Assembly (NCBI GenBank): GCA_024238995.1
Contig: JANBVL010000007.1
Span: 1 to 34,005 of the forward strand
Source: Patescibacteria group bacterium
GTDB lineage: Bacteria > Patescibacteriota > Minisyncoccia > Minisyncoccales > JANBVM01
Length of the DNA: 34,005 bases
Direction: 5' to 3'
How positions within the stretch are numbered: position 1 is the first letter of the stretch; every line of letters starts with the position of its first letter. This document shows, piece by piece, positions 4,759-32,989 of this stretch. The position numbers and the translations under genes are program-made. Below the pieces are notes generated by a model that saw only the letters and a list, made by a program, of their open reading frames with translations, did not search any database and was not told where the DNA came from.

Positions 4759-4786
4759 TTGACTTTTAGAGGATCTTTGATATAGT
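4759..4786 (+). promoter_or_regulatory. Putative sigma70 promoter of rny
   Basis: TTGACT (4759-4764), 16-bp spacer, TATAGT (4781-4786). The predicted start near 4793 leaves a leader of about 115 nt before the rny ATG. A weak CCC/GGG hairpin just upstream (about 4741-4760) may help end the pilin transcript. Confidence 0.55.
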
Positions 4787-17803: not shown

Positions 17804-19936
17804 GTGGCTGAAAAATTAAAATTAGAAATTGCTAAAAGAGATTTAATAGTTGAAATTTCGAACCTAGCAGAACAAAGTAATGGTTCTGTTTTTGTTCAAT
17901 ATGGAGAAACAATGATTTTAGCAACTGCAGTAATGTCAGAAAGAGAAACTCGTCTTGATTATTTCCCTCTTAGTGTTAATTATGAGGAAAAATTCTATGC
18001 AGCTGGAAAGATTAAAGGTCCAAGATACGTTAAAAGAGAGGGCAGGCCAACAGACGAAGCAATATGTAATTCAAGGTTAATTGACAGGGCTATCAGGCCA
18101 TTGTTCGATCAAACACTAAAAAGAGACATCCAGGTTATAACAACTATTCTTTCCTGGGACGGAGAAAATGATCCTGACACTTTAGGACTCTTAGCATCAT
18201 CTTTAGCTCTTTCAATATCTGACATACCATGGCAGGGACCTTTGGCAGCAGTTAGAGTAGGAAGAGTTGAAGATAAATTTATTTTAAATCCAACCTATGA
18301 ACAAACAGAGAAAAGCAACATGAGTGTTGTTTTTTCTGCAGTAGAATCAGAAAAAGAAATTTTAGTGAACATGATAGACGGAAACTTTAATGAAATAGAT
18401 GACTCTTTAATTTTAGATGCTTACAAGTTTGCAGAACCTTATCTTAAAAAAATAATTGATTTTGAGAATAAAATTATACGGGAGAAAGGGAAAGAAAAAA
18501 TTATTATAGCAAGCCCTGTGAAAGAAATTGAGCTTGAAAATGAAGTCAGTAAGATTTTAGAAGGCAAGCTTGAAAAAGCGCTTTTTCAAAAAGATAAGAA
18601 ATTAAGGAAAAGCGAAGTTGGTCAGTTAAAGGGACGGGTAATTGTTTTTGCAAAAGATAATTATCCAGAGAAAATCAATCTTGCTGTTGAGATTTTTGAT
18701 GAACAAGTAAAAAAAATCGTCAGAGCTAGTATTTTGGAAAAAGAAAAAAGAATTGATGGAAGAAAGTTAAGCGAAATACGAAAACTTGATTCTAAAGTAG
18801 GACTTATACCAAGAAGCCATGGCTCTGGGCTTTTTCTAAGGGGACAGACAAAATCTTTATCAATTCTTACGCTGGGCGCTCCTGGCGATGTTCAATTCCT
18901 TGAAGGCATGGAAGTTGTAGGAAAAAAACGTTTCATGCATCATTATAATTTTCCTCCTTATTCTGTAGGAGAAGCAAGGCCAATCAGAGGGCCAGGCAGA
19001 AGAGAAATTGGTCATGGTATTTTAGCTGAAAAATCTTTAGCTCCTTTAATTCCCTCTTCTGATGAATTTCCTTATACAATAAGAATTGTTTCTGAAATAC
19101 TTTCTTCTAATGGTTCAACTAGCATGGCTTCAGTATGCAGTTCTTCTTTGGCACTAATGGATGCTGGGGTGCCGATAAAAGCGCCTGTGGCTGGAATCTC
19201 TATTGGTTTAATTGTTGAGCCTGGAGTAAAGTTCCCATCCAGCAAAACTAATTACAAGCTTTTAACTGACATTCTGGGGTCTGAAGATCATAATGGTGAT
19301 ATGGATTTTAAATTAGCTGGTACTAAAAAAGGAGCAACAGCAATTCAGATGGATATTAAAGTGGGTGGGATTACAGAAAAAATATTTAAAGAATCTATAG
19401 AAAAAGCTAAAAAATCAAGGCTTGAGATTTTAAATGAAATGGGAAAAACTATAGAAAAAGCAAGGCCAAAGCTATCACCTCATGCTCCAAGGATATTAGT
19501 TATTCAGATTAATCCAGAAAAAATTGGCAAGGTTATCGGCCCAGGAGGAAAAATAATAAATGAAATAATTGAAGAATGCAATGTTTCAATTGACATTGAA
19601 GAAACAGGAAAGGTTTTCATTACTGCAGAAAAAGAAGAAGCTGCCGAAAAAGCTGTTTCATGGATAAAAAACATTACCAAAGAAGTTAAAGTTGGAGAGA
19701 TATTCCAGGGCAAAGTAATACGAATACTTGATTTTGGCGCTTTTGTTGAAATCCTTCCCGGACAAGATGGTTTGATTCATATTTCTAAATTAGCTCCATA
19801 CAGGGTGCAAAAAGTTACAGACATTGTTAAAATAGGAGATATGGTAGAAGTTAAAATAATTTCTATTGACGAGGAAGGAAGGATAAACCTCTCTCTTAAT
19901 GATGAAAAACATGCAAGAGCAAAAAAACGAAGATAA
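17804..19936 (+). CDS. pnp: Polyribonucleotide nucleotidyltransferase (PNPase)
   Basis: Phosphorolytic 3'-5' exoribonuclease, a homotrimer. The 710-aa protein has the full set: two RNase PH domains (about 1-215 and 300-535) split by an all-helical linker, then a KH domain (about 545-605, IGKVIGPGGKIINEII) and an S1 domain (about 612-685, GEIFQGKVIRILDFGAFVEILPGQDGLIHISKL). FLRGQTKSLSILTLG and GEARPIRGPGRREIGHG in the second RNase PH domain are family hallmarks. The start is GTG 17804 (MAEKLKLEIAKRDL). The last 38 bp overlap the next gene. rpsO upstream is the ancestral neighbour. Confidence 0.97.
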   Translation: MAEKLKLEIAKRDLIVEISNLAEQSNGSVFVQYGETMILATAVMSERETRLDYFPLSVNYEEKFYAAGKIKGPRYVKREGRPTDEAICNSRLIDRAIRPLFDQTLKRDIQVITTILSWDGENDPDTLGLLASSLALSISDIPWQGPLAAVRVGRVEDKFILNPTYEQTEKSNMSVVFSAVESEKEILVNMIDGNFNEIDDSLILDAYKFAEPYLKKIIDFENKIIREKGKEKIIIASPVKEIELENEVSKILEGKLEKALFQKDKKLRKSEVGQLKGRVIVFAKDNYPEKINLAVEIFDEQVKKIVRASILEKEKRIDGRKLSEIRKLDSKVGLIPRSHGSGLFLRGQTKSLSILTLGAPGDVQFLEGMEVVGKKRFMHHYNFPPYSVGEARPIRGPGRREIGHGILAEKSLAPLIPSSDEFPYTIRIVSEILSSNGSTSMASVCSSSLALMDAGVPIKAPVAGISIGLIVEPGVKFPSSKTNYKLLTDILGSEDHNGDMDFKLAGTKKGATAIQMDIKVGGITEKIFKESIEKAKKSRLEILNEMGKTIEKARPKLSPHAPRILVIQINPEKIGKVIGPGGKIINEIIEECNVSIDIEETGKVFITAEKEEAAEKAVSWIKNITKEVKVGEIFQGKVIRILDFGAFVEILPGQDGLIHISKLAPYRVQKVTDIVKIGDMVEVKIISIDEEGRINLSLNDEKHARAKKRR

Positions 19937-22262
19937 TAAAAAAGAATTAAAATTTTTAAAAGCTAAAGTCAGAGCTCCTTTAGAAGAGGCTCAGGAAAGA
20001 TTAAGAAAATCTTCTATTAATGAAGAACGAAGCTCTTTTTCTCAACAAGAACAAAAACCTACTCCTGCGCCAATAGTTCAAACTCCGCCCTCACAAAAAC
20101 AACCTGAAAAAATATTAGAACCAACTCCAATCCCAGCACCAACACCAGCACCAGCACCAACTCCAAGCCCAACTCCGGCACCGACTCCAAAACCAACACC
20201 GCAAGTTTCAGAACAACAAGCAAAACAAGAATTAGAAAAAGCTCTAAAACAAGAACCAAGCTTAAAAGATGTAATGCCTGCACCTGAAAAACCTAAGATA
20301 GAGCCTGAAAAACCAATACCACAACCTGTTTATGAAAAACCAGAGGCACCTCCAGCTCCAAAAGAAGAAAAATTAGAGCACTTAAAAAGAGGGGAGATTA
20401 GAACAATGCAGAAAGATATTAAAAGCCAAAGAGAGTTTGAGGCAAAACAAGAAAGGCAAAAAATTGTAGGATTGCAACAAGAGAGACAAAAGCCAGCATT
20501 TGAAAAAATTGAACCCCAAGAACCAAAACCAACAATACCAGAAGAAACCCTTATCCCTCAACCACCAACGCCCCCCTCTCCTTTAAAAAAGATTTTAACC
20601 AGAGCGGGTTTTTTTATTATTTTATTTTTAATTATTGGATTTGGTTATTGGTTTTTTTCTCAAAGACAACAGCCAGTAACTGATGAAGAGGCCTCTCAGC
20701 AAGAACAGGAAATTGTTGAACAAGAACCAGAAAAAGAACCAGAAATTGCAGTTTCTAAATCTTTAATTTCTGTTAAAGATACATTAACTTTTAATGCAAC
20801 AAGCTCTGAAAGTTTAAGTAAAATCTATGCTCAAATCATTACCCAATCTTTAACAGAAAATGAGTTTGTGCGCATCGTTATTAAAAATGAAGATGAAAAA
20901 CGATTATTAACACTTAATGAAATTGCAACTGCTTTTGGCATTACAGTGCCCTCTGATGTTTCAGAAAGCTTAAAAACTGATTCTTTAAATCTATTAGTTT
21001 ATTCTCAGGAACATGGTAAAAGAGCTGTAATGATTTCAGAAATTGAAAGTAAGCAGAATTTAAATACAGCGCTTTTGGCTTGGGAAAATGAAGTAATCGC
21101 GAATGGGTTAAATGTTTTAGGACAAACAATTCCAACTATTTCTACAAACTTCAGAGATTATGCTTTTGAAAATGTTCCTTTCCGCTTTTTAACAATATCA
21201 ATGAATGATTTAGGAATCTGTTATGTTGTATATAATAATTACTTCGCCCTGAGTTCTTCTTTCAAAAGCATAGAAGAAACAATAAAAGCCTTTAAACAGC
21301 AGGCAGTTATAAATGAACTGAAAGATAAGGCTGGCCAGTTATTTATTGTGGGATTTAAAGGGAAAACAGTTGATTCAGATCTTGAACAATTTTTTAAAAA
21401 ATATAAACCAGGCGGAGTGCTACTTTTGTCTGAAAACATTGAAAATGAAGAACAATTAAAAGCTTTAACTGCTGATCTTCAGGCTCTTTCAGAAAAAGAA
21501 ACAGGTCTGCCTCTTTTCATTGCTGTTGATCAAGAAGGGGGTCAAATATCAAGAATTGACTTTTTAACAGAAAAAACCAAACAATCTGAAATCACAAGCG
21601 AGAATTACGCTTATGCAGTTGGACTTAAAAGAGGTGAAGAGCTTAAAAATTTAGGAGTAAACCTTAATCTGTCTCCTATTTTGGATGATGCTCAAACTAA
21701 TGACTTTGTTTATGAACGTTCGTTTCAAAAGCTAGTTGAAACCATAGGCAATCTGGCAAAATCCATTATTACAGGACAAAAAGATGCCGGCATTTTAACT
21801 GCTATCAAGCATTTCCCTGGCTATGTGAATATTGATTTTAATCCTGAAGATAGATTAGCTACAACTAATCTCCCAGAAATATCTCAGTTCAAAACAGCGC
21901 TTGAATCAAATCCTGAAATAGTAATGAGCTCGAATGTAATTTATTCTGATCTTGATCCTAATCTGCCTTTTTCATTTTCTTCAACAAGTATTGAGTTTTT
22001 AAAAAGTGAATTAGGTTCTGACATTTTAATTATTTCTGATGATTTAAGCCAAAGCTCATTGCTTAATAATTTTACTTTAAAAGAAATAATGACTAAACCA
22101 ATTTTGGCTGGAAATGATATTTTGATTTTTTCTGGCTGGCGAAGTCCGGTCAATCAAGCTTTGGATGAATTTTTAAAAGCTGTAGAAAACCAGGAAATTT
22201 CACAAGATATTATCAATAATGCTTACTTAAAAATTTCTCAGCTTAAAACTAATTTAGAATAA
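19899..22262 (+). CDS. Membrane-anchored protein with Pro-rich cytoplasmic region and external GH3 (NagZ-like) domain
   Basis: A 787-aa multidomain protein. Residues 1-230 are charged and strongly Pro-rich (PTPAPAPTP-type repeats at about 54-102), with no signal peptide. One transmembrane helix follows (about 236-254), then an unrecognised external alpha/beta region (about 285-465). Residues about 470-787 are glycoside hydrolase family 3, NagZ-like: IAVDQEGGQISRI (541-553), NLNLSPILD (588-596), AIKHFPG (635-641) and IISDDLS (711-717) with the likely nucleophile Asp. The loop after KHFPG lacks the DxH acid/base dyad of NagZ (EDRL instead), so activity is uncertain. The start overlaps pnp by 38 bp; ATG 19911 is an alternative. 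A role in peptidoglycan binding or turnover is inferred. Confidence 0.82.
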   Translation: MMKNMQEQKNEDNKKELKFLKAKVRAPLEEAQERLRKSSINEERSSFSQQEQKPTPAPIVQTPPSQKQPEKILEPTPIPAPTPAPAPTPSPTPAPTPKPTPQVSEQQAKQELEKALKQEPSLKDVMPAPEKPKIEPEKPIPQPVYEKPEAPPAPKEEKLEHLKRGEIRTMQKDIKSQREFEAKQERQKIVGLQQERQKPAFEKIEPQEPKPTIPEETLIPQPPTPPSPLKKILTRAGFFIILFLIIGFGYWFFSQRQQPVTDEEASQQEQEIVEQEPEKEPEIAVSKSLISVKDTLTFNATSSESLSKIYAQIITQSLTENEFVRIVIKNEDEKRLLTLNEIATAFGITVPSDVSESLKTDSLNLLVYSQEHGKRAVMISEIESKQNLNTALLAWENEVIANGLNVLGQTIPTISTNFRDYAFENVPFRFLTISMNDLGICYVVYNNYFALSSSFKSIEETIKAFKQQAVINELKDKAGQLFIVGFKGKTVDSDLEQFFKKYKPGGVLLLSENIENEEQLKALTADLQALSEKETGLPLFIAVDQEGGQISRIDFLTEKTKQSEITSENYAYAVGLKRGEELKNLGVNLNLSPILDDAQTNDFVYERSFQKLVETIGNLAKSIITGQKDAGILTAIKHFPGYVNIDFNPEDRLATTNLPEISQFKTALESNPEIVMSSNVIYSDLDPNLPFSFSSTSIEFLKSELGSDILIISDDLSQSSLLNNFTLKEIMTKPILAGNDILIFSGWRSPVNQALDEFLKAVENQEISQDIINNAYLKISQLKTNLE

Positions 22263-26463: not shown

Positions 26464-29028
26464 ATGCTTCAATTGTTTAAATTATTTTCTAATTTTAAAA
26501 AACGTTTGAACTCTGTTTTTTCTTATAATAGGAAAATTCTGATTCTAGGAATAATTCTAGGAATATTTTTATGTGTTTTTAATTTCCAAGCTGCTGAAGC
26601 TCTTTATAGTTTAAAGGATCTCAAGAATGACATATTAGGTCCAATAATATATATTTTTACTCTTCCTATCCGGATGGTTTTTGTTGTTCTAGTTCTTGTC
26701 ATAGGAATTCTAGGCTTAGTAGCTTCAAGTATATTTACCTTTGTTGCTTCCCTATTAAGCTGGTTAATACAAGAATCTTTATCAATCAAGGTGGTCCCAG
26801 GGCCCGATACATTTGAAGCAGTTAACGTAGGGTTTGAATTTACTAGGAATTTTGCCAACATGTTTATCATTTTAATCTTAGCTATGATCGGCTTGGCAAC
26901 AATTCTTAAAATGAGAGAGTATGAAGCACGAAAAATATTGCCCAAGCTCCTTATGGTTGCTCTTTTAATTAATTTCACACCGGTCATGGTTGGATTCATT
27001 GTTGATATTGCAAATCTTTTCACTAATTTTTTCTTTACAGAAGTAAGTAATGCTTTTGGCCCTATTGACATCGGTATTGATATAATGGAAGACATGAAAG
27101 ACCTGCTAGATCCAGATTTTAGCGTTGCTAATCCTAAAGATGTTGTTAACGTTGTAATTCCCATCGTCATAAAGGGAATTATAATGATCATCTTTTACAA
27201 CATTGCTACTTTTGTTTATCTTTTAGTTTTCCTTTTGTTTTTTGTTCGATTTATAATACTTTGGGTTCTGGTAATTTTAGCGCCAATTGCTTTCTTATCT
27301 CAAATCTTACCAGAATCTCCAACAGTTAAAGCGCTTTTTCCTAGCATATTACATTGGAATAAATGGTGGGAAACACTTATCCAGTGGGCAGTTATAGGCA
27401 TACCTCTTGGTTTTTTCCTTTATCTTTCTGCTTTCATTTTAGACGGAAGGGCAGTGCTAGAACTAAATAATCCTGATAGTCCTTTTGGTGCTATTATTGG
27501 AGCTATCTTAGGACCAATGATCGCAATATTTATACTAATTGTTGGAATAATGATTTCTATTGAATCTGCGCCAGGAATTGCCCAACGGATATATGGAGGA
27601 GCTAGTAAGCTTGGAAAAAAGGTAGCAAAAATAACAGGAAAGAGAGCAGCATTACCGATTGCAGGAAAAGCTGGAGCAGGAATTCAAGCATGGGGAGAAA
27701 GACAAAGGCTGGCTGGTGTTAAAACCCCAGGACAAATAGCAAAAGCAGGAAGGCTTAGAAAATGGGGTTGGGCTTTACGCCGAAAAACAGGAACAATCAC
27801 AGAGAAAACTGGAAGAAGAATGGTGGTAGCAAAACAAGAATCAGAGACAGCAGATGTAGAAGTTGCAAAAAAGACGACGAAAGGAAAAGCAGAGGGAAAA
27901 CAAATGGTTAAATTGCAATCAGCTCTGACTAAAAGCGCTCTTCCTGGCGCTACCCCTAAAATAATCGGGACAATGGAAGCTATGATGGAAGATGGAACTT
28001 TAGAAAAAGCTGAAAAGGCTGGTATTTTTGGAACAAAAGAATATCAGAAATACGTCAAAGAAGCTGGAAATAGAAACAGAAAATCACTTCAACTTTATGA
28101 TATGAAAAGGGCGGCTCAAGTAGTAGAACCAGAAAAATGGCAAAAAGGACAAACCAGCATTGATGAAGGTAAAGCTGAAATTGAGAAGGCAGAAATAGCT
28201 ATCAATCCAATAGAAAAGCTAATGCTTCGTAAAAAAGGCGAGGAACTTATTCATAAAGGAGAAGAAATAAAGAAGGAACCAATAAGGAAAATGCTGGCTG
28301 GGATAAAACCTTCGGATATGAAATTAATGTCAGAAAAATCTCTTACAGACGACACTGTAAAGAAAGCCATGGTAGACACGCTTAACGGCAACCAAATGGC
28401 TGAAATTGGTAAAAATTTTGGCAGACACATTGTAGAAGGCATACAAAAAGAAATTGAGGGGAAAGAGACTGTTGAGAAAGTCGCTGAGAAAAATCCTCCT
28501 CTTACTCTTTGGCTTCATGGAAATGCCGCACAGAATTTAGGATTTAAACTCCCCGGTAAACACTTAGAACGAAGGGAAGTGAAAGAAGTGGTTAACAAGG
28601 CACAGAAAAGAATAGAAAATAAGGCTACAATAGGAAAAAGGGAAATGAAGATAAAATACACAGGCAAAGAAACATTAATGTTTAGAGATTATTATAGAAA
28701 AGACATATCAGAAAAAGAAAAGGGGCTGATTAAACAAATTGTGACTGAAGAAAAGAAAACAATTCCTCCGGAAGCTGAAATTAAAAGAAGAATTGGAAAA
28801 ACCGAAAAGAGATTTGGTAAAACGGATGAATCATTGAAGCCGTATCGAGAAAATTTGAAAAAAGCTAAGAAAGCCTGGAAACAAGCGAATAGGCCAACGT
28901 CAGGCGATATATATAAGCTTCTAAAAGAAACTGAAAGAAGATTTGAAAATATGGAAAGAAAAGTAAAGAAAACTCAAGAAGCTATAGAAAAAGAAATTGA
29001 ATCAAAATTAGAAGATCTTTGGAAATAA
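26464..29028 (+). CDS. VirB6/TrbL-like polytopic membrane protein with long charged C-terminal extension
   Basis: An 854-aa protein. Residues 1-370 hold about nine hydrophobic segments (about 24-43, 57-80, 82-104, 127-148, 158-182, 228-256, 257-280, 303-326, 343-367), the plan of VirB6/TrbL-type inner-membrane channel components of type IV secretion systems. The KWWETLIQWAVIGIPLGFFLYL segment is typical of patescibacterial members. From about 375 to the end the protein is soluble, rich in Lys, Glu and Ala and mostly helical, ending in a coiled coil, about 480 residues more than classical VirB6. Its neighbours prgI and virB4 support a T4SS role. The channel function is inferred from architecture. 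Confidence 0.75.
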   Translation: MLQLFKLFSNFKKRLNSVFSYNRKILILGIILGIFLCVFNFQAAEALYSLKDLKNDILGPIIYIFTLPIRMVFVVLVLVIGILGLVASSIFTFVASLLSWLIQESLSIKVVPGPDTFEAVNVGFEFTRNFANMFIILILAMIGLATILKMREYEARKILPKLLMVALLINFTPVMVGFIVDIANLFTNFFFTEVSNAFGPIDIGIDIMEDMKDLLDPDFSVANPKDVVNVVIPIVIKGIIMIIFYNIATFVYLLVFLLFFVRFIILWVLVILAPIAFLSQILPESPTVKALFPSILHWNKWWETLIQWAVIGIPLGFFLYLSAFILDGRAVLELNNPDSPFGAIIGAILGPMIAIFILIVGIMISIESAPGIAQRIYGGASKLGKKVAKITGKRAALPIAGKAGAGIQAWGERQRLAGVKTPGQIAKAGRLRKWGWALRRKTGTITEKTGRRMVVAKQESETADVEVAKKTTKGKAEGKQMVKLQSALTKSALPGATPKIIGTMEAMMEDGTLEKAEKAGIFGTKEYQKYVKEAGNRNRKSLQLYDMKRAAQVVEPEKWQKGQTSIDEGKAEIEKAEIAINPIEKLMLRKKGEELIHKGEEIKKEPIRKMLAGIKPSDMKLMSEKSLTDDTVKKAMVDTLNGNQMAEIGKNFGRHIVEGIQKEIEGKETVEKVAEKNPPLTLWLHGNAAQNLGFKLPGKHLERREVKEVVNKAQKRIENKATIGKREMKIKYTGKETLMFRDYYRKDISEKEKGLIKQIVTEEKKTIPPEAEIKRRIGKTEKRFGKTDESLKPYRENLKKAKKAWKQANRPTSGDIYKLLKETERRFENMERKVKKTQEAIEKEIESKLEDLWK

Positions 29029-29061
29029 AAAAAAGGAGTAAAGTTATAAACCTTACTTCCT
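29027..29061 (-). terminator. Intrinsic terminator of the minus-strand repeat-protein gene
   Basis: Read on the minus strand, AGGAAGTAAGGTT (29061-29049) pairs with AACTTTACTCCT (29045-29034), with one G-T pair and one bulged A. An eight-T run follows (29034-29027) that overlaps the stop codon of the convergent VirB6-like gene. It is a strong Rho-independent terminator in the minus direction only. Confidence 0.8.
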
Positions 29062-29087
29062 ATGGATTGAATCCCTATGAATAGACA

Positions 29088-29639
29088 CTATGGAGTGGGA
29101 GTGGCAGCTCTTATCGCTATGTAATCATCAATATCTGACACTGTAATTCCACGAGCAGAAGATGCAATAATCAAGGAGATATCGGCAACCGTCAAACCAC
29201 TGTCAATAGCTTTCTGCTGAGCTGGTACACTCGCAAATCGTATTAGAGCTGTTGGAGCTGCTGAAGTTGCTGGAGTTGCTGGAGAGGGAGTTGAGGGGGT
29301 AGCTGGAGTAGCTGGAGTAGCTGGAGTAGCTGGAGTTGGAGAGGGAGTTGAGGGGGTAGCTGGAGTAGCTGGAGTTGGAGAGGGAGTTGAGGGGGTAGCT
29401 GGAGTAGCTGGAGCTGGAGTAGCTGGAGCTGGAGGAGTCGGTAACTGTGTCAATATAGAATCACTTTCTCTTTGAACTTCAGTCACTTCGTCTTTTAAAT
29501 CCTGAGTTTTCAAGATTTGGTCAAGAGTTTTCTCTAATTCCTTTACCACTTTTTTCTCCTTCTTGAGTGTCTTTTTTAACAATTTTTCTTCTTTCTTTGA
29601 TTTTGTTTTAATTCTTTTAATTGTATTTCGTGATGTCAT
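29088..29639 (-). CDS. Lys-rich coiled-coil protein with Pro/Ala/Thr tandem repeats and short C-terminal domain
   Basis: A 183-aa protein of unknown family. Residues 1-60 are highly basic and helical (KKEEKLLKKTLKKEKKVVKE). Residues about 67-127 are a low-complexity PAT/PST linker made of 13-residue units. Residues about 130-178 form a small helical domain (PAQQKAIDSGLTVADISLII). There is no signal peptide or membrane helix, so it is predicted to be cytoplasmic unless exported by the surrounding T4SS-like apparatus. It has its own near-consensus promoter, a dyad in the 5' leader and its own terminator, all inside a cluster running the other way. Real coding is supported by codon structure and by flanking signals; function unknown. 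Confidence 0.65.
   Translation of the reverse strand: MTSRNTIKRIKTKSKKEEKLLKKTLKKEKKVVKELEKTLDQILKTQDLKDEVTEVQRESDSILTQLPTPPAPATPAPATPATPSTPSPTPATPATPSTPSPTPATPATPATPATPSTPSPATPATSAAPTALIRFASVPAQQKAIDSGLTVADISLIIASSARGITVSDIDDYIAIRAATPTP
29264..29435. repeat. In-frame tandem repeats (39-bp units with nested 9-bp units)
   Basis: Two exact adjacent 39-bp copies occupy 29335-29373 and 29374-29412. A third copy at 29275-29334 is longer by two extra 9-bp GTAGCTGGA units and has one variant codon; degenerate 9-mers continue on both sides. All unit lengths are multiples of three, so copy-number change keeps the reading frame of the minus-strand gene. The repeat is far more GC-rich than its surroundings. 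Confidence 0.9.
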
Positions 29640-29660
29640 TTTTTTTCACCATTTTTAGAC

Positions 29661-29683
29661 TTCGGCATAAAATTTATGCCGAA
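29661..29683. promoter_or_regulatory. Perfect 10-bp inverted repeat between divergent genes
   Basis: TTCGGCATAA (29661-29670) and TTATGCCGAA (29674-29683) flank a 3-nt centre. It lies in the predicted 5' leader of the minus-strand repeat gene, just downstream of its start point, and upstream of the plus-strand promoter. No T-run follows on the minus strand, so an operator or an RNA-stabilising 5' hairpin is more likely than a terminator. Confidence 0.6.
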
Positions 29684-29712
29684 TTACTAACCAAATGATA
29701 ACATTATATTAT
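29684..29712 (+). promoter_or_regulatory. Putative promoter for the second half of the T4SS-like cluster
   Basis: TTACTA (29684-29689), 17-bp spacer, TATTAT (29707-29712). The predicted start is near 29719, 16 nt before the ATG at 29735. It overlaps the divergent minus-strand promoter completely, so the two should be mutually exclusive. Confidence 0.4.
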
Positions 29713-29723
29713 AAATTTGTCAA
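29695..29723 (-). promoter_or_regulatory. Near-consensus promoter of the repeat-protein gene
   Basis: On the minus strand: TTGACA (29723-29718), 17-bp spacer, TATCAT (29700-29695), eleven of twelve consensus matches. It is the best sigma70-like promoter I see in the window. The leader would be about 50 nt and contain the inverted repeat. Confidence 0.7.
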
Positions 29724-29734
29724 TAGCTAAATTT

Positions 29735-30151
29735 ATGCCTAAAAATTTAACAAAAAAACAATACTGGGAGCTATTCCAAAAGCTCTCTGACGAATTAAAA
29801 ACCCAACTTTTATCTGAAGAAACAGCCAGAAGCATTCTTGATATTTGTGACAGGTATAAAGTAGAACAGGTTCCGCAAATTGCCAGCACAACTGGCGATG
29901 TTTTGCTGGGCATATTAAGGCCTGATGAATTTCAAGAAACCATTGAGCAGAAATTAGAATTAGATAAAAATGTAGCAAAAAAAATAGCTCAGGAAATTAA
30001 CCGCTTCATTTTCTTTCCTGTGAAAAGAAGCTTGGAAGACATTTATAATATGGAAATCACTCCACCAGCTCAGATGGAAATTCCAGGGCCAATAAAGAAA
30101 GAGTCTGTAAAAACAGGAAAAAAAGATACTTATAGAGAACCTGTAGAATAA
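29735..30151 (+). CDS. Small helical protein of the T4SS-like cluster, function unknown
   Basis: A 138-aa soluble, largely helical protein: LTKKQYWELFQKLSDELKTQLLSEETARSILDICDRYKVEQ, then a conserved-looking segment around VLLGILRPDEFQETIEQKLELDKNVAKKIAQEINRFIFFPVK and a Pro-rich charged tail. I chose ATG 29735; an in-frame TTG at 29717 would lie in the promoter region. Proteins of this look occur next to prgI and virB4 in patescibacterial genomes, from memory of the family rather than a search. It is followed by prgI after 2 bp. It may be a cytoplasmic adaptor of the apparatus, which is inference. Confidence 0.65.
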   Translation: MPKNLTKKQYWELFQKLSDELKTQLLSEETARSILDICDRYKVEQVPQIASTTGDVLLGILRPDEFQETIEQKLELDKNVAKKIAQEINRFIFFPVKRSLEDIYNMEITPPAQMEIPGPIKKESVKTGKKDTYREPVE

Positions 30152-30153
30152 TT

Positions 30154-30555
30154 ATGAGATTTACTGTTCCTCAATTTATTGAACATGAGGCTAAAATAGT
30201 GGGGCCTTTAACTTTTAAGCAGTTTACATATATTGGCATTGCAGGAGCAATCTGTTTTATTCTATATTTTAGTGTTTCTTTCCCATTATTTCTTTTAGCT
30301 TCTGTCGTGCTAGTTGGAGGAGGCATGGCATTGGCATTTTTAAAAATTGGGGGAAGATCACTTCCTGGTGTTATTGGAAGCTTTCTAAGGTTCAAGCTTA
30401 CGCCTAAAATGTATTTGTGGAAGAGAAAACAAGGAACAATTTCAATCTTGAAACAAAAAAAGGCAGAGAAAAAAGAAGAAGAAACGTCTTTAAAGATTGT
30501 TAAGAAAAGCCAGTTGAAAAATATTCAAACTGAAATAGAAACAAAAACTAAGTAA
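30154..30555 (+). CDS. PrgI-family T4SS membrane protein (VirB3-like)
   Basis: A 133-aa protein with the PrgI layout. It has an N-terminal FTVPQFIEHEAKIVGPLTFKQF segment, two close transmembrane helices (about 24-44 and 46-65), and a downstream basic cytoplasmic part with the family-like FKLTPKMYLWKRK, ending in a charged tail. PrgI proteins take the place of VirB3 in Gram-positive-type systems and accompany the VirB4 ATPase. The gene is 2 bp from its upstream neighbour and 1 bp from the next, so it is tightly co-transcribed. Confidence 0.88.
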   Translation: MRFTVPQFIEHEAKIVGPLTFKQFTYIGIAGAICFILYFSVSFPLFLLASVVLVGGGMALAFLKIGGRSLPGVIGSFLRFKLTPKMYLWKRKQGTISILKQKKAEKKEEETSLKIVKKSQLKNIQTEIETKTK

Positions 30556-30556
30556 T

Positions 30557-31189
30557 ATGGCAAATGCAGCTACTCAACAAGTAATAGAAATAGACAAGAT
30601 TAAGGAAGGAGTAATTATTTTAAGGAATAAAGCTTTAAGGGGGGTATTAATGGTTTCCTCAAGTAATTTTGCATTGAAATCAGAAGAAGAACAAAATGCC
30701 ATAACTTTTCAATTTCAGAATTTCTTAAATTCCTTGGATTTTTCCATTGAAATGGTTGTTCAATCGAAAAAACTAAACATTACTGGTTATTTGGAAAAAT
30801 TAAAAGAATTAGAAGCTAAACAAAAAAATGAACTTTTAAAGATTCAAATTACTGAATACCAGAAGTTTATTAGAGAGATGATAAGAGGCAGCGCAATAAT
30901 GTCTAAGCAGTTTTTTGTGATAGTACCTTTTAGCTTAATTGAACTGCCAAGATTAACTGCTGAAGAGAAAAAACAAAAAACCTCATCTTTAACAGAAGAA
31001 AAATTCCAAAGAGCAAAGAACCAGCTTTGGCAAAGATTGGAGTTTGTTGCTTTGGGTCTGAGACGATGCGGTCTTCAGTCTGTTCCCTTAAACACTTCTG
31101 AATTAATTGAACTTTTCTGGAGTTTATACCATCCAGAAGAAGCTGAAGTCGGGTATTATCCAGACATACCGCCTGAATTAACAATGTAA
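30557..31189 (+). CDS. Free-standing VirB4/TraC N-terminal-like domain protein
   Basis: A 210-aa soluble protein without an ATPase motif. It has features of the N-terminal domain of VirB4/TraC: IKEGVIILRNKALRGVLMVSSSNFALKSEEEQNAI, then FQNFLNSLDFSIEMVVQSKKLNI, and the later QFFVIVPF strand and LGLRRCGLQSVPLNTSELIELFWSLYHPE. In most type IV systems this domain is fused to the ATPase; here the ATPase is the next gene, 12 bp downstream, in effect a split VirB4. It probably works in a complex with that ATPase. Confidence 0.75.
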   Translation: MANAATQQVIEIDKIKEGVIILRNKALRGVLMVSSSNFALKSEEEQNAITFQFQNFLNSLDFSIEMVVQSKKLNITGYLEKLKELEAKQKNELLKIQITEYQKFIREMIRGSAIMSKQFFVIVPFSLIELPRLTAEEKKQKTSSLTEEKFQRAKNQLWQRLEFVALGLRRCGLQSVPLNTSELIELFWSLYHPEEAEVGYYPDIPPELTM

Positions 31190-31201
31190 CCACATATTAA
31201 C

Positions 31202-32989
31202 GTGATTCAATTCCCATTTTTTAAAAAGAAAAAACAAGAAATTCCTGAGCAGCTTTTTGAAGCACCGACAATAGATATTAAAGATATCATTGCTCCTTCT
31301 TCTTTAACTGCTACCTCAGATCATTTGAAGCTGGGCAAAAAAATGGCTAGGTCTTTTTTCATTTTTTCTTATCCAAGATATTTAAGCACAGGCTGGTTTT
31401 CTCCGATTATTAATATGGATACTCCAATGGATATTGCTATCCATGTTCATCCAATTAACACTAGTTTGGTTTTAAAGCAATTAAGAAAAAAAGTGACAGA
31501 AGTAGTAGCTGAAATTAGTGAAAGAGAAGAAAAAGGACTAATCAGAGACCCAACATTAGAAATTGCTTACCAAGATTTAGAAGCCTTAAGAGATAAGCTC
31601 CAAACAGCCCAGGAAAGAATGTTTAGATTTGGTGTTTATTTAACAGTTTATGGAGATACTGCCCAGCAATTAAGGAATATTGAAACTAAATTAAGGTCAA
31701 TTCTAGAATCACGCTTAATCTATATTAAACCATCTCTTTATCAGCAAATGGCAGGATTTAATACTTCAGCCCCTTATGGACTAGACCAGCTTCAAGTTCA
31801 CACGACAATGAATACTGGACCTTTATCTTCAATTTTCCCTTTTGTTTCTTTTGATTTAAGCTCTAATGAAGGAATACTTTATGGCGTAAATAGGCATAAT
31901 AATTCTTTGATTCTGTTTGATAGGTTCAGTCTGGAAAATGCGAATGAGATAATTTTCGGTAAATCGGGAAGCGGAAAGTCATATTTTGTAAAAACAGAAA
32001 TTTTAAGATATTTAATGACTGGAGTTGAAGTAATGGTTCTTGATCCTGAAAATGAGTATAAATACTTAGCTGATGCAACAGGGGGCTCATTTTTCAATAT
32101 CTCACTGGCCTCAGATAATCATATTAATCCATTTGATTTGCCTATACCAAGACAGGATGAAAAACCAGAAGATGTGTTGCGCTCAAATGTAATTAATTTG
32201 GTAGGTCTTTTAAGAATAATGTTAGGTGGATTAACGTCTGAAGAAGATGCAATCATTGACCAGGCTCTAACTGAAACTTATGCTGCAAAAGATATCACTC
32301 CTGAAAGCGATCCTTCTGCTTGGAATGAAAGAATACCTTTAATGGAAGATTTTGAGGAAATTTTAAAAAACATGGAAGGCGCTGAATCTTTAGTAAGGCG
32401 TGTTAGAAAATTCACAAAAGGAACATTTTCCAAGTTTTTCAATCAACCAACCAATATCTCAATGGAAAAACCATTTATTGTTTTTGGAATAAGGGATATT
32501 GAAGACGAACTAAGACCAATGGCTTTGTTCATTGTTATGAGATATATTTGGAATAAGATAAAAACTGAAATGAAGAAAAGAATACTATTGGTTGATGAGG
32601 CTTGGTGGATAATGCAAAATGAAGATGGAGCATCGTTTCTTTACGGGATTTGTAAGCGTGGCAGAAAATACTGGCTAGGAGTCACTACTATCACTCAAGA
32701 TGTTAATGATTTTATGAAATCTTCCTATGGACAGCCAATTATCACTAACTCATCTTTACAAATCATAATGAAGCAATCTCCAGCAACAATTGATGTTGTC
32801 CAAAAGACCTTCAATCTAACTGAAGGAGAGAAGTATCTGCTATTGGAAGCAGAAGTTGGTGAGGGAATATTCTTTGCCGGGCAAAAACATGTTGCTATAA
32901 AATCAGTTGCATCATATGCTGAAGACCAAATAATCACTACCAGTCCTAAAGAAGCAGCTAAGATTAAAGAGATTAAAGAGGGAATATAA
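31202..32989 (+). CDS. virB4: VirB4-type conjugation/secretion ATPase
   Basis: A 595-aa ATPase of the VirB4/TraC class, which energises pilus assembly and substrate transfer at the cytoplasmic face. The Walker A GKSGSGKS is at 253-260, Walker B ILLVDEAWWIM at 461-471, and a sensor-like TTITQD at 495-500. The motor domain is preceded by a VirB4-type N-terminal part (about 25-240) with the SFFIFSYPRYLSTGWFSPIINMD segment. The start is GTG 31202 (GTGATTCAA); no nearby ATG fits. The N-terminal domain of typical VirB4 seems partly supplied by the upstream gene. The small membrane gene follows after 2 bp. Confidence 0.92.
   Translation: MIQFPFFKKKKQEIPEQLFEAPTIDIKDIIAPSSLTATSDHLKLGKKMARSFFIFSYPRYLSTGWFSPIINMDTPMDIAIHVHPINTSLVLKQLRKKVTEVVAEISEREEKGLIRDPTLEIAYQDLEALRDKLQTAQERMFRFGVYLTVYGDTAQQLRNIETKLRSILESRLIYIKPSLYQQMAGFNTSAPYGLDQLQVHTTMNTGPLSSIFPFVSFDLSSNEGILYGVNRHNNSLILFDRFSLENANEIIFGKSGSGKSYFVKTEILRYLMTGVEVMVLDPENEYKYLADATGGSFFNISLASDNHINPFDLPIPRQDEKPEDVLRSNVINLVGLLRIMLGGLTSEEDAIIDQALTETYAAKDITPESDPSAWNERIPLMEDFEEILKNMEGAESLVRRVRKFTKGTFSKFFNQPTNISMEKPFIVFGIRDIEDELRPMALFIVMRYIWNKIKTEMKKRILLVDEAWWIMQNEDGASFLYGICKRGRKYWLGVTTITQDVNDFMKSSYGQPIITNSSLQIIMKQSPATIDVVQKTFNLTEGEKYLLLEAEVGEGIFFAGQKHVAIKSVASYAEDQIITTSPKEAAKIKEIKEGI

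Follow-up and report, generated by a model that had tools for sequence, protein, structure and literature searches.

The window analysed here is a stretch of 34,005 nucleotides that makes up one entire contig (JANBVL010000007.1) of the 642-kb genome of a Patescibacteria group bacterium (assembly GCA_024238995.1, order Minisyncoccales). It carries a gene cluster resembling a type IV secretion system (T4SS) and, within this cluster, a gene on the opposite strand that is termed the slot gene below (29088–29639, minus strand, 183 aa). On its upstream side lies a plus-strand gene for a VirB6-like polytopic membrane protein with a long charged C-terminal tail (26464–29028); the open reading frame (ORF) and its position are conserved in relatives, the label was assigned from topology and position, and the protein matched 0 models in Pfam or NCBIfam. 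The plus-strand part on the other side begins with gene X (29735–30151), which encodes a conserved helical protein and whose true start (ATG 29735) was placed by homology in an alignment. It is followed by a PrgI/VirB3-like gene (30154–30555; PF12666, E 2.2e-7, above cut-off), a TrsD-like gene that matches VirB4 N-terminal-domain models below the curated cut-offs (30557–31189; NF045975, E 1.7e-8; NF041427 (TrsD), E 6e-4), and a gene for a VirB4-like ATPase of the CD1110/FATA kind (31202–32989; NF045971, E 1e-112, above cut-off; PF19044). The PrgI/VirB3 and TrsD homologues thus adjoin virB4, and a pilin-like gene is also present in this downstream part.

By gene content, the cluster matches the chromosomal T4SS described for Patescibacteria, a relative of the monoderm (MPF-FATA) conjugation machinery. 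Judged from the main text of that survey (PMC12102498), the two have in common VirB4-like, PrgI, TrsD-like and pilin-like genes, a nearby KsgA gene and, by topology and position, a VirB6-like gene. The window's order differs in that the cluster is split by an opposite-strand slot gene, as an earlier reading made from the window alone (the sequence-only reading) had noted for the window; this gene has the VirB6-like gene on one side and gene X on the other. Neither SPFH-family genes, which are considered below, nor slot genes appear in the main text of the survey (figures and supplements excluded), and literature searches did not yield a description of the slot either.

The slot gene has the properties of a coding sequence. 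With a codon usage model trained on the window alone, it scored 0.149 per codon, 14 of the 15 other window segments lying between 0.08 and 0.24, and the score was positive in the N-terminal, linker and C-terminal segments alike, as in other window genes. The other two minus-strand frames of the region scored negative; one plus-strand frame reached 0.147 but contains 4 stops. A Shine-Dalgarno-like GGUGA is located ~7 nt upstream of the ATG. The predicted protein consists of a basic helix (residues 1–65), a Pro-Ala-Thr (PAT) linker (~66–128) and a small C-terminal part (129–183). The AlphaFold2 (AF2) single-sequence model agrees with the basic helical N-terminus, flexible linker and small C-terminal part proposed earlier: it shows a helix at residues 2–65 (mean pLDDT above 80 over residues 1–50), a disordered linker and, with low confidence, three short helices at the C-terminus. 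No transmembrane or signal peptide-like segment was detected; the N-terminus is a Lys-rich helix and not a membrane anchor (maximum 19-residue hydropathy 1.43), and the C-terminal part, with 4 K/R and 5 D/E, is not basic. The linker is encoded by in-frame tandem repeats of 9 and 39 nt (29246–29428, minus strand; Tandem Repeats Finder and direct-repeat spacings), in which 2.6 copies of the 39-nt unit at 98% match are nested within a 9-nt array (29260–29428). The spacings between copies are multiples of 3, in line with what had been read from the sequence.

The slot gene is preceded by a sigma-70-like extended −10 promoter (TTGACA-17-TATCAT; 29723–29695, minus strand), identified by its consensus match only, with a perfect −35, a 17-nt spacing, the TG and 11 of 12 consensus positions. 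Two further sites in the window, at 4777 and 33320, also reach 11/12, and the number of promoter-like sites in the whole window is not above that in shuffles. The designation "best promoter in the window" is therefore fair only because no other site combines the perfect −35, the 17-nt spacing and the TG. That this promoter coincides in full with the promoter of the downstream half stays at the level of inference, as the 95-bp divergent region yielded no strong promoter on the plus strand for gene X. On the far side of the gene, a bulged hairpin followed by U8 (29018–29061, minus strand; −10.4 kcal/mol, z −2.05) resembles a terminator, which a simple scan overlooks because of the bulge; the unit's predicted own terminator is thus in place behind the minus-strand stop. 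Taken together, these elements make the slot gene a real-looking, presumably separately transcribed unit that interrupts the T4SS-like cluster.

The dyad reported just after the start point is a perfect 23-nt palindrome, TTCGGCATAAAATTTATGCCGAA (29661–29683), with 11-bp arms. It lies in the 5' leader of the slot gene, just past the predicted transcription start, and could act as an RNA hairpin or as an operator. Folded as RNA it yielded −14.6 kcal/mol (z −6.1), and 0 of 200 shuffles were as good. The palindrome is single-copy in the 642-kb genome, allowing up to 3 mismatches, and a genome-wide operator was therefore rejected. Conservation of the palindrome across divergent regions was likewise rejected, those of relatives containing only scattered cases. 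One half-site of it, AAATTTATGCC (29670–29680), reappears at the start codon of gene X (29729–29739).

Searches for relatives of the slot protein gave no homologue in its own genome and none that was convincing in 60 relatives. There were 0 Pfam matches, PF01145 (SPFH/Band_7) included, and no recognisable DNA-binding domain in Pfam or NCBIfam searches; NCBIfam matches to BimA, Vip and others were far under the cut-off and reflect Pro-rich low complexity. Viral contigs gave one match only, across the low-complexity linker, and phage records gave nothing convincing for the C-terminus. Sequence matches in the PDB (thiolase, a designed filament) were discarded as chance. The C-terminal 50 residues, which the sequence-only reading had suggested checking for conservation, are not conserved: the only repeated match was to CTP synthase (29–38% over ~42 aa, E 0.004–0.16, in many genomes), which we take as a single chance match that recurs because the enzyme is conserved. 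A similarity of the C-terminus to the PilB/GspE-like ATPase of the window (shuffle z 3.0) was also dropped, yielding no alignment in BLASTP.

The position of the gene is conserved even so in the order. We fetched 90 loci around gene X from the window's order and called their genes greedily by ORF length, a procedure by which individual assignments may be wrong; the relatives detected via gene X carry the labels Parcubacteria, Ca. Nealsonbacteria, Ca. Wildermuthbacteria or Patescibacteria. Counted were the 69 loci having both the VirB6-like gene and gene X. Family f43 was left out of the count: a large protein that is not VirB6-like lies directly upstream of X in these loci, and in one of them (L079:5630–7624) this ORF is penicillin-binding-protein-like. 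One or more minus-strand genes were present between the VirB6-like gene and X in 53/69 loci, the two being directly adjacent in 15, and the next three junctions contained none (0/68, 0/72 and 0/76; 0/216 in total). The comparison of this junction with the three following ones gave a Fisher p of 1e-43, uncorrected for relatedness. The window gene, at 29088–29639 on the minus strand between 29028 and 29735, fits the definition of the slot. Gap lengths, used to check the gene calls, sorted into classes, with medians of 1499 nt for SPFH, 625 nt for short and 21 nt for empty slots. For each of the 19 gaps of the short class the longest ORF was on the minus strand, and in none of them was a plus-strand ORF clearly better on codons (closest tie, L051).

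Outside the order but within the class, 20 loci were chosen by the strength of their gene X match, and 19 were scored, L212 being set aside because an antisense ORF hides its gene X. None of the 19 has a minus-strand slot gene. As a rule gene X directly follows the VirB6-like gene in these loci, the exception being L208, with a plus-strand gene in between. The slot was thus present in 54/70 order loci versus 0/19 in other orders (p 4e-10, uncorrected for relatedness). We are confident that a conserved opposite-strand slot exists in the window's order. It is absent from the sampled other orders of the class, its orientation is fixed, and its occupants have been exchanged repeatedly. Most simply, the slot would have arisen when a gene was inserted, within the window's order, into what had been an uninterrupted operon.

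Among 71 slot ORFs (70 from relatives and that of the window) 33 matched Band_7/SPFH. Per locus, classified by length and BLAST similarity, 35 slots hold SPFH and 18 other genes, i.e. about two thirds SPFH. Against PF01145, these SPFH proteins (~300–530 aa) score far below the canonical stomatins that the same genomes encode at other places; the genome of the window encodes a single canonical stomatin, located on a different contig, and lacks a divergent SPFH copy. The other occupants are short, mostly helical and charged, with a transmembrane segment in 7/19 and a very Pro-rich stretch in 6/19, and they are not recognisably related to each other except between near relatives (L160/L161). Some slots contain Y1/IS200-type transposases (L057, L147), an IS-type integrase (L063) or TM2 proteins. 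The slot of genome G008 (L063:5080–7806) holds an SPFH protein, the plus-strand IS-type integrase and a minus-strand SLT transglycosylase, the enzyme class of VirB1.

Occupant turnover was assessed on a VirB4 tree with three states (SPFH, short, empty). At least 14 changes are needed, and the states are still clustered (0/200 shuffles as low). The window forms a supported VirB4 clade with G001 (same genus) and G004 (same family), all with short occupants. In G001, where VirB4 and the TrsD-like protein are 86% identical to those of the window and gene X 51%, the slot is occupied by a helical protein of 132 aa and further ORFs, none of them recognisably homologous to the slot protein of the window; the 177-aa slot protein of G004 has at best marginal similarity to it (E 0.07, shuffle z 4.4). 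The check proposed by the sequence-only reading, a reading frame conserved in relatives, thus has a mixed outcome: the frame is not kept even within the genus, but location and orientation are kept across the order.

Our preferred reading, held tentatively and at a little under an even chance, is that the window cassette occupies an order-specific accessory slot of a chromosomal T4SS and has a scaffold-like function accessory to it; that the occupant serves the T4SS is inferred. A gene bringing along a promoter and a terminator of its own would have entered the once-continuous VirB6-X-PrgI-TrsD-VirB4 operon within the window's order, and X would therefore have needed a start of its own. In several lineages, including the family of the window, short helical proteins, some with flexible Pro-rich linkers, may then have replaced SPFH or filled the slot. 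The slot protein would sit close to the membrane as a scaffold or organiser and hold together or confine the inner-membrane portion of the T4SS. In the window, the basic helix might associate with other copies of itself, or attach to the membrane or to acidic stretches in the tails of T4SS proteins, and the PAT linker would space it from the small C-terminal part. The scaffold reading is based on SPFH proteins (stomatin, flotillin, HflK/C) being the main occupant, found in the same slot and on the same strand in 33–35 of the 53 occupied loci, and on the membrane rings and cages that they build, as described in two reports (PMC12624060, PMC11260169). The protein of the window differs in having neither an SPFH domain nor a transmembrane segment and would at most be a functional stand-in. 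Of the three roles that had been suggested for it, a scaffold fits best by this analogy, because SPFH proteins usually fill the slot; regulator and substrate are without positive support. In Agrobacterium tumefaciens, T4SS components and SPFH proteins are enriched in the same membrane fraction (PMC8656257).

Several points weigh against this reading. The occupants are non-homologous; as expected of a site that tolerates insertions, slots also hold genes for transposase, integrase, SLT and zinc-ribbon proteins; 15 loci of the order have no slot gene; the a/d heptad pattern of the N-terminal helix is no better than in shuffles; in Agrobacterium neither the localisation nor the function of the T4SS requires the SPFH proteins (PMC8656257); and contact of any slot protein with the T4SS is hypothetical. 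A neutral, insertion-tolerant site is accordingly the strongest rival, although we consider it somewhat unlikely: an ancient insertion would have created an operon boundary and a divergent promoter region that X now needs, the occupants would have no role in the T4SS, and orientation would be kept because transcription of X is left undisturbed by a minus-strand gene that ends in a terminator of its own. Occupants that are non-homologous even within a genus, and the transposase, integrase, zinc-ribbon and TM2 genes, are what such a site predicts, but SPFH in two thirds of the occupied slots, with the divergent forms mainly there, is not expected by chance, and an occupancy of 77% is high for genomes of 0.5–0.8 Mb. 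An elaboration of the scaffold reading, which we regard as rather doubtful, is that the order rebuilt its T4SS around an exchangeable scaffold encoded in the fixed slot: a dedicated SPFH protein confining the inner-membrane translocon would have come first, followed by repeated non-orthologous displacement by unrelated small helix-plus-linker proteins with an equivalent task, possibly tuned to different host cells.

The extreme turnover next to conserved machinery (VirB4 86% identical, slot protein unrecognisable) could also be that of a species-specific T4SS substrate, an effector for the host cell encoded beside its exporter, and the protein of the window is indeed soluble, has a disordered linker and lacks a signal peptide-like segment. 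This is improbable, as the commonest occupants are membrane-anchored SPFH proteins, which make implausible cargo, 7/19 short occupants have a transmembrane segment, and the C-terminus of the window's protein is not basic. We rate still lower a role as a cytoplasmic regulator, in which the protein would bind the palindrome to control its own gene as well as the divergent X-PrgI-VirB4 unit. The divergent layout, the 23-nt palindrome, the half-site repeat at the start of X and the basic N-terminus would suit it, but no DNA-binding family was recognised, the palindrome is not conserved in the divergent regions of relatives, and the usual occupants are SPFH proteins. That the slot gene is an open frame arising by chance across a low-complexity repeat is the least probable explanation and a very slight one: it would account for the lack of homologues and the low-complexity middle third, but not for promoter, GGUGA and terminator in the correct order, a codon score positive in all three segments, and the same strand being occupied at the slot in most relatives.

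The T4SS of Patescibacteria is widespread, is essential in the one cultivated member in which this was tested (PMC10633639), and lacks recognisable coupling proteins and relaxases. A slot with divergent SPFH proteins names a concrete, unstudied candidate T4SS component for an entire order, and where SPFH is missing the small proteins that replace it indicate where to look; functional partners may be findable by position once sequence homology is gone.

Gene X itself stands out as a promising candidate for a T4SS component not described so far. It was found in 112/184 genomes of the order and 165/287 of the class sample, and encodes a predicted helical protein (AF2 pLDDT 76) whose disordered tail closes with an invariant D.YREP[IV]E-like motif; searches of Pfam, NCBIfam and PDB folds gave no match. 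Larger ORFs of 200–650 aa contain the gene X domain in other orders. The VirB6-like protein had a median length of 897 aa with short occupants versus 739 aa with SPFH (p 0.0005); no claim is made on this difference because, once relatedness is corrected for, no more than 3 independent pairs are well supported. Elsewhere in the window, a 787-aa ORF (19899–22262, plus strand) has a transmembrane segment and a Pro-Thr-Ala-rich repeat region, a low-complexity linker similar in composition to that of the slot protein.

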